Shown here: piece by piece, positions 21,221-39,093 of the stretch
How the letters are laid out: each line of letters opens with the position of its first letter
How positions within the stretch are numbered: position 1 is the first letter of the stretch
From: Melioribacteraceae bacterium
Lineage (GTDB): Bacteria > Bacteroidota > Ignavibacteria > Ignavibacteriales > Melioribacteraceae
Length of the DNA: 62,737 bases
Assembly (NCBI GenBank): GCA_021647785.1
Contig: JAKIUC010000024.1
Span: 1 to 62,737 of the forward strand
Direction: 5' to 3'
Translations under genes and position numbers: made by a program
The notes under the pieces: generated by a model
Told to the model about the DNA's origin: nothing
Seen by the model: only the letters and a program-made list of their open reading frames with translations
Databases searched by the model: none

Positions 21221-21250
21221 TTTAATTAGTATCATATGATACTAATTAAA
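21221..21250. promoter_or_regulatory. Perfect 30-bp palindrome
   Basis: TTTAATTAGTATCAT (21221-21235) is followed with no spacer by its exact inverse ATGATACTAATTAAA (21236-21250). A perfect loop-less palindrome fits a dimeric regulator site better than an RNA hairpin, although a hairpin with a distorted tip is possible. It sits in the 442 bp spacer between the tandem array and the outer-membrane protein operon. Confidence 0.6.
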
Positions 21251-21290
21251 TTATAACCATGCTACTTGTGTAGCAGCCTAAGGGATTACT

Positions 21291-21493
21291 ATTTCAGCAG
21301 CAGCCCCGCTAAAACGGGACTGTCCTAAAATAAACCAAGACTTCGTCTTGTTTATTTCAGCAGCAGCCCCGCTAAAACGGGACTGTCCTAAAATAAACCA
21401 AGACTTCGTCTTGTTTATTTCAGCAGCAGCCCCGATAAAACGGGACTGTCCTAAAATAAATCAAGACTTCGTCTTGTTTATTTCAGCAGCAGC
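21291..21493 (-). repeat. Tandem array of three 63-bp units plus partial fourth at the 3' end of a T9SS cargo gene
   Basis: Units begin at 21291, 21354 and 21417, each exactly 63 bp. The first two are identical; the third differs at two bases. A partial fourth copy (14 bp from 21480) is the actual end of the beta-helix gene. Read on the - strand every unit repeats CTGCTGCTGAAATAA (Leu-Leu-Leu-Lys-stop), then a hairpin CAAGAC-GAA-GTCTTG with a T-rich tail, then GGAC-A-GTCC and CCCG-CGGG hairpins. The array thus looks like a repeated gene tail plus terminator. Confidence 0.9.
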
Positions 21494-23103
21494 ATTTTTT
21501 TAGTTTGAACAAAATTATCTGTGTTTATTGAATAAAAATAAATTCCTGATGATAATAATGAAGCGTCAAACTGATAAGTGTAAGCTCCGGCAACTAACTC
21601 TTCATTTACAAGTTCAGTAACTATTTCGCCTAATGAGTTATATACTTTAAGTGAAACCATTCCTTCCGTAGGAATACTAAAGTTAATAGTTGTAGTTGGA
21701 TTAAATGGATTAGGATAATTTTGCTCTAAGCTAAAATTAGATGGTATAGAACCTTGGTTATTTGGTTTAACAGATACTACATAATCAGGAAACCAATTTA
21801 GATCTCCAACCGGTGCACCATTCATACCATGTGTATAAGCGGCAAAAGTTGTAGCGTATGAAAAATCAAATTCATTATCTGTAAGACCAAAAGTTTCCGG
21901 ATTATCGGCTAATGTACCAATACCATTTCTATCTGCACGGATATCAATAAGGTTATCCATTTTACCGTCATTGTCGTAACGATCTTTTGCATAGGCAACA
22001 AGCAAGTTAATATCAGGTGCATCTGTAAAAATTACAGATTCTTCTATATTATTTTCTGCACTCATTCCATCATACATACTAAACAATGCGTTAGTAGATG
22101 GTCCATGAAAATCGAAAAGTTTTACAGTGTCATTTCGTGTAGCAATATAATCTTTTACTTCTTGAGACCATCCATAAACATTATTACCAAAGTATATGTT
22201 ACGTTCAGCATCTGTTGCAATAGTATCTGCATACAAGGAATCTATTGGCCATATATCTCTATATTCATATTCATCAGCAGGAAGATTTCTGTAACCTTCA
22301 ATAGAAATATCCATAAAGAGGTTATTAGTAACAGTTAAATTAATTGTTCTACCAGACATAAAATTTCCAGTATGAACACTACCGGATTGTGCAAATGTAT
22401 TGTGGTTAAAAATTACATTATGCATTACACCACCATATGAATGCCAAAAACGACTTGAGGCAACAAAAAACGTACTATTTTCAACAAATATAGTATCTTG
22501 ATAACCTCCACGAGAAGCAATCATTATTCCTTCGTAAGGATTATTTACTGTAGCTGAACTTCTAAAAATACTATTTGTTATATATAATTTTTGACTTGGT
22601 GCATTAGCACGAATAAATGCTTGTCTGTCATGATCTAAAAACATTTTATCAAGAATATATCTGCTTCCTTCACCTTCAAACCTAAACATGTTTTTGCCAC
22701 CTGTACCACCCAAATCATTTATACCTGAAATATAAAGGTCAACATATTCTGCATCACCAGTTGGTCTAGAAAATCTGGGGGCTGAACCAACATCAGGCAA
22801 AACAACAGGAATAATTATTGGTTTATGTCCTTCACCTTTAGCAGCAACAATTCTTAACGGAGAGCCTTTGGCAGATCTTAGTGCTTCAGTTATAAGATAC
22901 CACCCACCTCTTTCTAAACGCCAAACTCTGTTAAGATTTAGAGGATCACCATTTGCATCAACATCAGCAATAATGGCACCATCTAAAGTTTGATACCCTT
23001 GAGGTACATCAAGTGTATCTTGTGCAAACGTATTTTGAAAAGCTCCTAATAATAAAATTAGGGCGAAACTTGTAATTATTTTAGTGAGTTTAATTTTTTC
23101 CAT
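21478..23103 (-). CDS. Secreted beta-helix (pectate lyase-like) protein with T9SS domain
   Basis: This is a 541-residue protein with a signal peptide (residues 1-27, ending NTFAQ). The N-terminal part has GGWYLITEALRSAKGSPLRI, followed by beta-helix turns (KLYITNSIFRSSA, DTIFVENSTFFVASS, LTVTNNLFMDIS), similar to chondroitinase-B/pectate-lyase-like proteins. The C-terminus has NYPNPFNPTTTINF, VYNSLGEIV and the final KKMLLLK, a type A T9SS sorting domain. AGGAAG precedes the ATG. Its last codons are repeated in a 63 bp tandem array directly downstream. It follows the TonB receptor gene and may generate that receptor's ligand. Confidence 0.85.
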   Translation of the reverse strand: MEKIKLTKIITSFALILLLGAFQNTFAQDTLDVPQGYQTLDGAIIADVDANGDPLNLNRVWRLERGGWYLITEALRSAKGSPLRIVAAKGEGHKPIIIPVVLPDVGSAPRFSRPTGDAEYVDLYISGINDLGGTGGKNMFRFEGEGSRYILDKMFLDHDRQAFIRANAPSQKLYITNSIFRSSATVNNPYEGIMIASRGGYQDTIFVENSTFFVASSRFWHSYGGVMHNVIFNHNTFAQSGSVHTGNFMSGRTINLTVTNNLFMDISIEGYRNLPADEYEYRDIWPIDSLYADTIATDAERNIYFGNNVYGWSQEVKDYIATRNDTVKLFDFHGPSTNALFSMYDGMSAENNIEESVIFTDAPDINLLVAYAKDRYDNDGKMDNLIDIRADRNGIGTLADNPETFGLTDNEFDFSYATTFAAYTHGMNGAPVGDLNWFPDYVVSVKPNNQGSIPSNFSLEQNYPNPFNPTTTINFSIPTEGMVSLKVYNSLGEIVTELVNEELVAGAYTYQFDASLLSSGIYFYSINTDNFVQTKKMLLLK

Positions 23104-37500: not shown

Positions 37501-39093
37501 TGGGTTTGTAACTTGAGCAAATAGTTGTTTAAAATAGTTGAATAGCAACTGAGGTTTCTCACTCAATACTGCTAAGGGAGTATCTGTTCCCATAGAACCA
37601 GTTGCCTCAATTCCATTTTCTATCATCGGAGTTAATATTGTTCTGATATCTTCGTAACTATATCCAAAAGCTTTTTGCTGTTGTAAAATTTCTTCATTAT
37701 TAAATTCAAATTTATCTTCAATTTTTTCTAACGATTCAAGTTCTAACATATTCTCTTTTACCCAAAGCGAATAAGGCTTTTGCGATGAATACTTCTCTTT
37801 TAATTCATCATCTTCAATTATCCTTCCTTCCTCAGTATCTATTAGAAATATTTTCCCTGGCTGAATCCTTCCTTTCTTTTCAATATCTTTGTTTGCAACA
37901 GGTAGTGTTCCTGCTTCAGATGCCATAATAATTCTGCCATCCTTTGTTTTCCAGTACCTTGCAGGGCGTAAGCCATTTCTATCTAAAATTGAACCGATAT
38001 ACCGCCCATCTGTAAAGGCAATAGATGATGGTCCATCCCACGGTTCCATTAGTGATGAATGATATCGGTAGAACCCTTTTTTCTTCGCATCCATATTTTT
38101 ATCACCCTCCCACGCTTCCGGAATCATCATCATTAAAGCGTGTGGTAACGAGCGTCCACTAATAACAAGCAGTTCTAACGCATTATCGAATGTAGCAGAA
38201 TCACTTCTATTTGGGGCAACTATTGGATAAACACTTTTTAATTTATCCCCGAATGATTTACTTTGGAATTGGTGTTCACGTGCATTAAATCTGTTCACAT
38301 TTCCGCGTAAAGTATTTATTTCACCGTTGTGAGCAATCATTCTGTATGGATGGGCAAGCGACCAAGTAGGGAAAGTGTTAGTGCTGTATCGTGAATGAAC
38401 AAGTGCAATTGCAGATTCAACTTCTAAGTTTTGGAAATCGAGAAAATATGTTCTTAATTGAATTGCCCTCAATTGTCCTTTATATATAAGGATTTTATTG
38501 GATAGTGAACAAACATAAAAATATTTTTTCTGTTGAATTTCTGTTTTATTAATTTTTAGCCCAATTTTTTTCCTTATAAAATAGAGTGCTTTTTCAAAAT
38601 CTTCTTTTTTTGTATTTTTACCCCTTGCAATTAAAATCTGTTTCATTACAGGTTCAACCGATTTTGCAGTCTCACCTATTTTACTATTATCGCGAGGCAC
38701 ATCACGCCAACCCAAGAATTTTTGCCCACCCCTATTTACTTCATGCTCAAACATTGTTTCAATTGTGTGCCTATCTTCCGGTAGTTTTGGAAGAAAGATT
38801 AGACCTGTTGCATAGTCCCCTTTTGGAGGTAATTCAATATCGCGATACTCACATTCAGCTCGTATAAATTTATCTGGGATTTGGATTAATATACCAGCCC
38901 CATCACCCGTATTTGGGTCGGAACCTGTAGCACCTCTGTGTTCCATATTTTCTAAAACCGTTATTGCATCAGAAACTATTTGATGAGATGGGTTCCCTTT
39001 AATATCTGCTACAAACCCAACACCGCAACTTTCGTGCTCCATATTTGGATTGTACAATCCTGCTCCCTCTGGGAAGAATTTATCATTCTTCAT
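34570..39093 (-). CDS. gltB: Glutamate synthase large subunit
   Basis: The 1507-residue subunit has an N-terminal glutaminase domain whose nucleophile is Cys23 in MEHESCGVGF, so the first 22 residues are the removable propeptide. It continues with an FMN-binding synthase domain (GFDGGTGASPQTSIKNSG) holding a [3Fe-4S] cluster in CVLQRNCHLNTC, and a C-terminal GXGXG beta-helix domain (about 1260-1450). Ammonia is channelled from the first domain to the FMN site. GGAG precedes the ATG. gltD lies downstream on the same strand, forming a gltBD operon. Confidence 0.97.
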   Translation of the reverse strand: MKNDKFFPEGAGLYNPNMEHESCGVGFVADIKGNPSHQIVSDAITVLENMEHRGATGSDPNTGDGAGILIQIPDKFIRAECEYRDIELPPKGDYATGLIFLPKLPEDRHTIETMFEHEVNRGGQKFLGWRDVPRDNSKIGETAKSVEPVMKQILIARGKNTKKEDFEKALYFIRKKIGLKINKTEIQQKKYFYVCSLSNKILIYKGQLRAIQLRTYFLDFQNLEVESAIALVHSRYSTNTFPTWSLAHPYRMIAHNGEINTLRGNVNRFNAREHQFQSKSFGDKLKSVYPIVAPNRSDSATFDNALELLVISGRSLPHALMMMIPEAWEGDKNMDAKKKGFYRYHSSLMEPWDGPSSIAFTDGRYIGSILDRNGLRPARYWKTKDGRIIMASEAGTLPVANKDIEKKGRIQPGKIFLIDTEEGRIIEDDELKEKYSSQKPYSLWVKENMLELESLEKIEDKFEFNNEEILQQQKAFGYSYEDIRTILTPMIENGIEATGSMGTDTPLAVLSEKPQLLFNYFKQLFAQVTNPPIDPIREEVVMGEEILLGAEGNLLEETPEQAVRLSIPRPVITNSELEQIKNVTHSKFKSITFSILFDKSDKFNGIKKRLKELFKEANRAIKDGCSIIILSDRGVDKDKAAIPSLLAASGLHHYLTRKGTRTLTSIIVESGEVREMHHFAALIGYGANAVNPYLAFEIINNELKNGNIKVEDYKTAEKNYLKAVRKGLFKITSKMGISTIQSYCSAQIFEAVGLSDKLIKKYFTATPSRIGGIGIKTLTEEALRRHSAAFPKNKIDDGILSAGGNYKWRADGEYHQWNPDTIQILQQAVRSSSYSKYKEYASLLNSSEKNLSSIRGLLQFRKRKPIDIWDVEPVINIVKRFATGAMSYGSISQEAHETLAIAMNRIGGFSNTGEGGEDKARFTKEANGDWKRSRIKQVAQGRFGVSIEYLVNADQIQIKMAQGAKPGEGGQLPGHKVSKEIARTRGTTPGVGLISPPPHHDIYSIEDLKQLIHDLKNANPDADISVKLVSEVGVGTIAAGVAKGKADHILISGFDGGTGASPQTSIKNSGLPLELGLAETQQVLIMNNLRERVKIQADGQLKTGRDVVIAALLGADEFGFATSALIAMGCVLQRNCHLNTCSVGIATQDAELRKMFKGKPAHVINYFNFIAEEVREIMAEFGFKIFDEMIGRVDLLETAEVENHWKAKGLDVTAVLHRPDVPHNTLVRHAQKQNHELELALDNKLISACRKSLSDKERVRFSVDINNTNRTVGTMLSSYVAKKYNMEGLPEDTIQIDFIGTAGQSFGAFLAHGITFHLEGDCNDYVGKGLSGGKIIIVPQEDSTFTPEENIIVGNVILYGAITGEMYIRGEAGERFAVRNSGANTVVEGIGDHGCEYMTGGRVVVLGDVGKNFAAGMSGGIAYVWDKSKNFRSLYNSEMVELYKVEKDEDITELKSIIENHKKYTNSSVAEKILKNWDEYLPQFIKVYPTDYKRVLEKEKAQMTNYK

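Follow-up and report, generated by a model that had tools for sequence, protein, structure and literature searches.

Introduction

Phages and ICEs that integrate at the 3′ ends of genes bring a sequence that restores the gene end and leave the old end behind as a duplicate. Unlike these, the repeat unit analyzed here (50 to 70 bp) has no visible integrase or cargo, and its targets are dozens of paralogous genes. MITEs are defined by terminal inverted repeats, a target-site duplication, and a parent transposase; the gene-tail copies that flank our units are identical at some loci and different at others, and a parent transposon was sought among Y1 transposases. For REP sequences, spread by gene conversion was reportedly proposed by Higgins in 1988.

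In the accessible parts of two sources on REP/BIME elements and RAYT-linked REPs (PMC3733652, PMC12306157), these elements appear, like our unit, as short palindromes beside stop codons that form tandem and alternating arrays; unlike them, the unit occurs at one gene family, is half coding, and has arms matched to the codons of its host gene. Rickettsia palindromic elements also add coding sequence, but the available text describes them as ∼150 bp long and fused in frame within unrelated metabolic genes (PMC10969869), whereas the unit sits at T9SS tails and replaces the last five codons and the stop. The IS605-type stem loops of Borrelia lipoprotein genes lie at the 3′ ends of a surface-protein family, overlap the last codons, and show RNA-type compensation. 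They derive from an identifiable IS605 and have a fixed sequence, and the available portion of the source reports no stacks of displaced tails (PMC2775950), whereas our unit carries an inverted copy of its own gene tail. Finally, quasipalindrome or template-switch mutation, as presented in the accessible text of PMC8794818, can both generate inverted repeats and correct them, and might in this way maintain the match between the arms; alone, it explains neither a shared TCCCG hairpin nor gene-to-gene spread. Among the papers listed by searches of the openly accessible literature, none was recognized as a description of the element.

Results and discussion

Architecture of the array

The window, i.e., the whole 62,737-nt stretch of DNA that was analyzed, belongs to a fragmented Melioribacteraceae genome of 4.25 Mb in 99 contigs (G000; contamination estimate, 3.5%). 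The tandem 63-bp array reported in the original prediction is real. Positions 21289-21492 (minus strand) are occupied by three units of 63 bp each, together with a tail copy of 15 bp, and TRF returned a period of 63, 3.2 copies, and a 98% match over 21290-21493. The copies at 21290, 21353, and 21416 are 100, 100, and 97% identical over 78 nt; two units are identical to each other, with slight differences in the gene-proximal one. The host is a T9SS cargo gene (21478..23103, minus strand) encoding 541 aa with a type A sorting domain (TIGR04183, 43.1 bits; PF18962, 44.8 bits). It ends in ATG CTG CTG CTG AAA TAA (minus strand), its last five codons plus stop (21478-21492) make the 5′ arm of unit 1, and CTGCTGCTGAAATA(A/G) is found again 48, 111, and 174 nt past the stop.

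Unit 1 (21430..21492, minus strand), at the functional gene end, consists of CTGCTGCTGAAATAA, a stop-codon hairpin, and a TCCCG hairpin, as indicated by TRF, the fold, and a match to the covariance model R1 introduced below (21415-21492; E=3.6e-13). By alignment and fold, its hairpin 1 (21451..21486, minus strand) pairs Leu-Lys-stop with their inverted copy around a GAA loop, and hairpin 2 (21427..21448, minus strand), CAGTCCCG..CGGGGCTG, is the portion commonest across units. Units 2 (21367..21429) and 3 (21304..21366), both on the minus strand, have the same architecture according to R1 matches and copy identity. Behind them, the sequence reads as a displaced tail copy, CTGCTGCTGAAATAG, that terminates in TAG (21289..21303, minus strand), the other three tail copies of the window having TAA. 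Farther downstream, beyond the coordinates of the original prediction, CTGCTACACAAGTAG (21262..21276, minus strand; frame L-L-H-K-stop) is probably an older decayed tail copy, judging from like layering at other loci, and a perfect 15+15 nt palindrome with no assigned strand, TTTAATTAGTATCAT/ATGATACTAATTAAA (21221..21250), is kin to the TAGTATCA(A/T)ATG motif of several T9SS gene ends. A search with this second motif as AAATAGTATCA(A/T)ATG yielded 24 matches at ≤1 mismatch versus 5 for the reversed control. Many of the copies, sometimes perfect palindromes, sit at T9SS stops or displaced tails (window 21221-21250, C62:55878-55901, C59:56723, C85:1322, C91:35957, C54:62225, and others), and the motif may be a decayed older unit type.

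In general terms, the unit reads as the last five codons and stop, a loop, the inverted copy of those codons, and a TCCCG..CGGG hairpin. Three hairpins had been assigned to it, but the fold gives two, a 16-bp stem holding the third Leu codon, the Lys codon, and the stop, followed by CAGTCCCG..CGGGGCTG. The predicted RNA fold has −29.2 kcal/mol versus a shuffled mean of −14.5 (z = −5.3; 1/200 shuffles equally good), and folding as DNA gives z = −5.1. The inverted copy can also pair with the downstream tail copy. That the unit length is a multiple of three is incidental; the eight clearest arrays, including that of the window, have periods of 61, 61, 63, 63, 60, 62, 67, and 65. In-frame readthrough of the window array was discarded because every unit contains a second in-frame stop (TAG) and periods vary modulo 3. 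A phage origin was likewise rejected, its two weak, short Listeria phage matches (E=0.3) being taken as chance, and Rfam families gave no match at gathering score across the whole window. REP palindromes have a GTAG or CGTC tag beside them; in this genome, TCCCG is mostly preceded by ACAG or ACAA, and GTAG stands beside it in the units of relative G001. At L034 (C77, 6598-6813) and L039 (C96, 7310-7431), hairpin 2 is interrupted or replaced by a repeat common to both loci, CCTGCCTGCCCCGTTGTTTTTGCG..TACACGGTGGA.

Occurrence at T9SS gene tails

When the same genome was searched at the DNA level, 32 matches (E up to 10) were obtained, of which the weakest do no better than chance; these matches elsewhere ruled out an array private to the window gene. 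The genome holds at least 150 T9SS sorting-domain matches (150 scored of 201 candidates), and 24 aligned units from the 3′ ends of these 150 genes were used to build R1. All 71 matches returned by R1 at E up to 10 (150 of 4,710 candidates scored) were located at T9SS tails, a count that includes opposite-strand matches to the same palindromes. Two of the matched genes fall outside the listed 150, with 29.1 and 17.8 bits against a family cutoff of 23. R1, like the second model R2, holds coding positions and rewards pairing, and both favor paired T9SS tails. Because R1 contains coding positions, we also used a post-stop pattern, TTTATTTYANNACARTCCCG, whose 38 matches at ≤2 mismatches (one on the opposite strand) all lay 16 to 264 nt beyond the stop of a T9SS gene (30 genes; median, 19 nt); ∼1% of the genome is within 300 nt of such stops, and the reversed control pattern gave 2 matches. 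Downstream of other T9SS genes, where the original prediction suggested looking for it, the unit is thus present, and the refuting condition named there, confinement to this spot, fails. By R1, 31/150 listed T9SS genes carry a unit at first position, and short or decayed versions exist in a few more. On contig C34 (17.6 kb), eight T9SS genes all point the same way, and six have a unit at the tail.

Distribution over the class

At the family level, R1 found units in at least 6/79 genomes (E≤0.02) and, over the class, in at least 24/391 (E≤0.01); R2 raised the class figure to at least 55/294 genomes and 28/151 genera (E≤0.001). The own genome is counted throughout, and the figures are lower bounds, with 59, 12, and 17 candidates scored per genome, respectively. 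The named relatives are Ignavibacteriales/Melioribacteraceae. Of 16 new class loci found with R1, 14 are directly readable as T9SS tails by inspection. The other two are the third unit of a tandem series that follows a T9SS tail and L276, whose sequence lies across from the L288 tail on the other strand and overlaps it. Among 20 new loci found with R2, 19 pass the T9SS sorting-domain cutoff (33 bits or more versus 23), and the remaining one is a 40-aa piece at a contig end with 18.1 bits, below the cutoff. Elsewhere, L180, L181, and L182 are all T9SS tails, of which L180 alone has a unit. The landing site common to cargo genes that had been suggested for this repeat is borne out by all R1 matches returned in the genome and with nearly all class loci inspected, one (L188) being a non-T9SS match. 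Tandem arrays parallel to that of the window occur in other lineages at L269 (G254:C357:1449-1619) and L266 (G222:C4:203255-203434), with periods of 52 and 55.

Displaced tails and probable arrival of units

In the cases compared, the ATG codon precedes the unit and the former last five codons follow it. The new last codons come from the unit, and 3′ of it a copy of the former tail is still present, in some cases in decayed form. A 792-aa T9SS protein gene, for example, has units in G000 and L199 and none in L200 and L201. L199 aligns to its unit-free ortholog L200 with one 62-nt gap, and the L200 tail TTGTTAATTAAATAG with its flank matches the displaced copy TTGCTAATTAAATAG with its flank in L199. 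Similar alignments of a unit-free end with the displaced copy plus flank were obtained in the comparisons of C77 with L200 and L201 and of C34:1160 with C63:2265 and C17:79222. Between unit-free L210/L211 and unit-bearing L213 the flank aligns and the displaced copy is truncated, and the alignment of C54:61991 with the L185 array of G001 (45% identity) is weaker, extending mainly over the motif common at T9SS ends. A loose regex called 69 homolog pairs differing in unit state, of which only 8, the C54:61991 pair among them, aligned well (score of 40 or more); several of the remainder were miscalled or lacked a flank that could be aligned. The window gene has its nearest homologs at 40 to 41% identity (79 family genomes), with no unit by inspection, and thus offers no clean before/after pair.

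The alignment of unit-free gene ends with the displaced copy behind a unit in several homolog pairs indicates that the unit rewrites the tail. The direction of each single case is unproven, because loss of a unit by recombination between tail copies leaves the same empty product; arrival is argued by the several loci taken together with the decay of displaced copies and the codon shifts in unit-bearing genes. A regex search detected 26 displaced copies, with none in 5/31 genes; 11/26 end in TAG and 4/26 have lost the stop. CTG occupies codon −5 in 19/31 unit-bearing genes versus 6/119 others, and the stop is TAA in 28/31 versus 63/119. First and displaced tails are identical in C8, C83, C97, C57:4608, and others, which is what target duplication or local conversion would give, and they differ at other loci. 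The tail of C57:4608, ATTTTGATGAAATAG, which flanks its single unit on both sides, recurs in the paralog C57:7240, where four units precede it and its distance from the stop is 214 nt.

Units do not follow the sorting domain that precedes them. Their similarity is uncorrelated with that of the C-terminal-domain (CTD) coding sequences (Spearman, −0.08; p = 0.10; 465 pairs), with extremes of 95% identical CTD coding with units at 58% and of 61% CTD with units at 90%, even if some close sorting domains share similar units (80% with 98%). This weakens the idea of a unit traveling with the whole sorting domain. The array had also been viewed as a recombination seed for tail exchange, and this holds for the last five codons, which are replaced at each arrival, but not for the sorting domain, which is not exchanged. 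Some recipients, such as C8 (ATGTTG, as in unit-free relatives), appear to retain their own first tail codons; the left junction is therefore not fixed.

Pairing of the hairpin arms

In the alignment of this genome's units (A1), 88.6% of hairpin arm positions are paired, with 57 double-change cells versus 21 in shuffles, the 10 pairs changed on both sides being unexceptional (7.9 in shuffles; 51/500). Pairing reaches 96.5% in the class set (43 double-change cells versus 15 shuffled). The inverted copy tracks the codons of each gene, as shown by comparing own with other genes' arms (within-genome permutation, 0/2000; 46 units, including row L224, which is probably not a true unit), the effect being weaker for the 13 relatives alone (53/2000). 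In other genera, the arm sequence differs and complementarity to the own gene tail is kept. In class alignment A2, whose rows were found by the pairing-rewarding R1, the third base of the Lys codon is in A-T pairs in 17 rows, in G-C pairs in 7, and broken in none; the counts are 15, 7, and 1 (plus 1 gap) for the second base of the stop codon and 16, 2, and 1 (plus 5 gaps) for the third. In 20 loci outside R2 training, the six terminal bases of the gene have an exact reverse complement in 16 cases, and no locus has the reverse complement of a different six bases from another gene; these loci, too, were picked by a pairing model.

Departures from Watson-Crick pairing on the gene strand are of the wobble type, with G-U outnumbering A-C by 19 to 3 and, in a second set, by 11 to 1 (related sequences, so the counts are not independent). 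This bias points to RNA. According to the available text of PMC8794818, template-switch repair can also keep arms paired without selection. One explanation is an RNA element of T9SS mRNAs that is under selection and passed on vertically, a stop-codon stem-loop acting in translation termination, mRNA stability, or regulation, which was lost from most genes and whose tandem copies result from replication slippage. The class-wide presence (at least 55/294 genomes and 28/151 genera), with which simple inheritance plus loss is as compatible as spread, speaks for it, as do the compensated Lys and stop codons, the wobble bias on the sense strand, and the orthologous C77/G002 locus, where the unit is kept with a compensatory arm change. 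We nevertheless regard pure inheritance as rather unlikely given that first-position units occur by R1 in only 31/150 listed T9SS genes and do not track the sorting domain, that displaced old tails suggest arrivals, and that G004 had no R1 match among the 121 candidates scored per genome despite at least 150 T9SS matches.

A model of spread

Our preferred reading, which we hold to be rather probable on the sequence evidence, is that of a dispersed palindromic element of ∼50 to 70 bp at the 3′ ends of Ignavibacteria T9SS genes with type A sorting domains, which would spread by homology among tails and be kept as a stop-codon hairpin in RNA. The donor would contribute two tail copies around the hairpins and the recipient one, copying taking place by gene conversion or replication template switching. 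Homology for this could be provided within the genome, where no fewer than 150 T9SS genes end in a similar ATG-Leu-Leu-x-Lys-stop tail. In stacked arrays, the 5′-most unit would be the most recent. Copying by tail homology would explain the family specificity, the fixed orientation and codon position, and why no transposase matches the unit. We infer that such homology-driven copying is the simplest account of the spread. The excess of G-U over A-C departures suggests that the stop-spanning hairpin is retained at the RNA level, through an effect on translation termination or on mRNA stability.

If so, the repeat lands where a large paralogous family shares a tail and brings a working replacement, and the last residues of many T9SS signals in these bacteria (K-M-L-L-x-K) would be partly element made. 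More tentatively, this might be a mobile element of a new kind: a palindrome that homes to gene tails without its own recombinase, lands on the T9SS family tail, carries a coding tail that keeps the protein secretable, doubles as a stop-codon RNA hairpin, and in one class has rewritten secretion-signal ends many times over. The stacked tails would record successive arrivals in natural layers, against which the spread of palindromes by gene conversion, as proposed for REPs, could be tested. Likewise, an RNA hairpin placed exactly on the stop codons of secreted-protein genes makes effects on termination, mRNA decay, and expression directly testable.

Y1 transposases

Instead of tail homology, a RAYT (Y1) transposase might mobilize the unit as a REP/BIME-type element with a target preference at the ATG-CTG junction. 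The unit is indeed palindromic, dispersed, and tandem, with alternating arms; seven Y1 transposase matches exist in the genome, G001 units have GTAG beside TCCCG, and REPs can supply stop codons, as stated in the accessible part of PMC3733652. REP/BIME elements are nonetheless typically dispersed beside many kinds of genes, whereas the matches returned here (71/71 with R1 and 38/38 with the post-stop pattern) are all at T9SS tails. Another hallmark, a repeat flanking the Y1 gene, was not seen at the five Y1 loci searched with R1 (L137-L141), which gave one weak match (22.2 bits) and no convincing unit. The left boundary also varies within the tail homology. We thus consider RAYT mobilization improbable. 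Two of these loci carry other palindromic repeats of their own, like ordinary RAYT/REP loci: AATCCC..GGGATT at L138 (C52; Y1 gene, 37666-38010) and the AAAAGTTGGGC / AAAAGTTGGGCTTTT type at L140 (C40).

Terminators and the stop codon

The original prediction also raised serial termination, in which the units would be serial (bidirectional) intrinsic terminators of T9SS genes. A GC stem with a T tract exists on both strands of the window array, where a consensus scan made six terminator-like calls, also on both strands (8 in a 4-kb region versus a shuffled mean of 1.7), and the 3′ arm is T-rich (five or more T in eight bases; seven in the window unit) in 9/20 class loci. The remaining 11/20 fall below this threshold, however, and terminator-like sites occur downstream at similar rates in unit-bearing and unit-free genes (10/29, after dropping two of the 31 because of short sequence, versus 34/119). 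Unit-bearing L213 and unit-free L210/L211 also have a terminator-like hairpin in common downstream. Furthermore, with the stop codon inside hairpin 1, ribosomes that terminate there would be expected to cover the hairpin. Serial termination is therefore an improbable explanation of the unit and is at most a local side effect. By analogy with E. coli REPs within 15 nt of the stop, which are reported to stall ribosomes (PMC12306157, accessible part), the stem on the stop codon could act in a similar manner.
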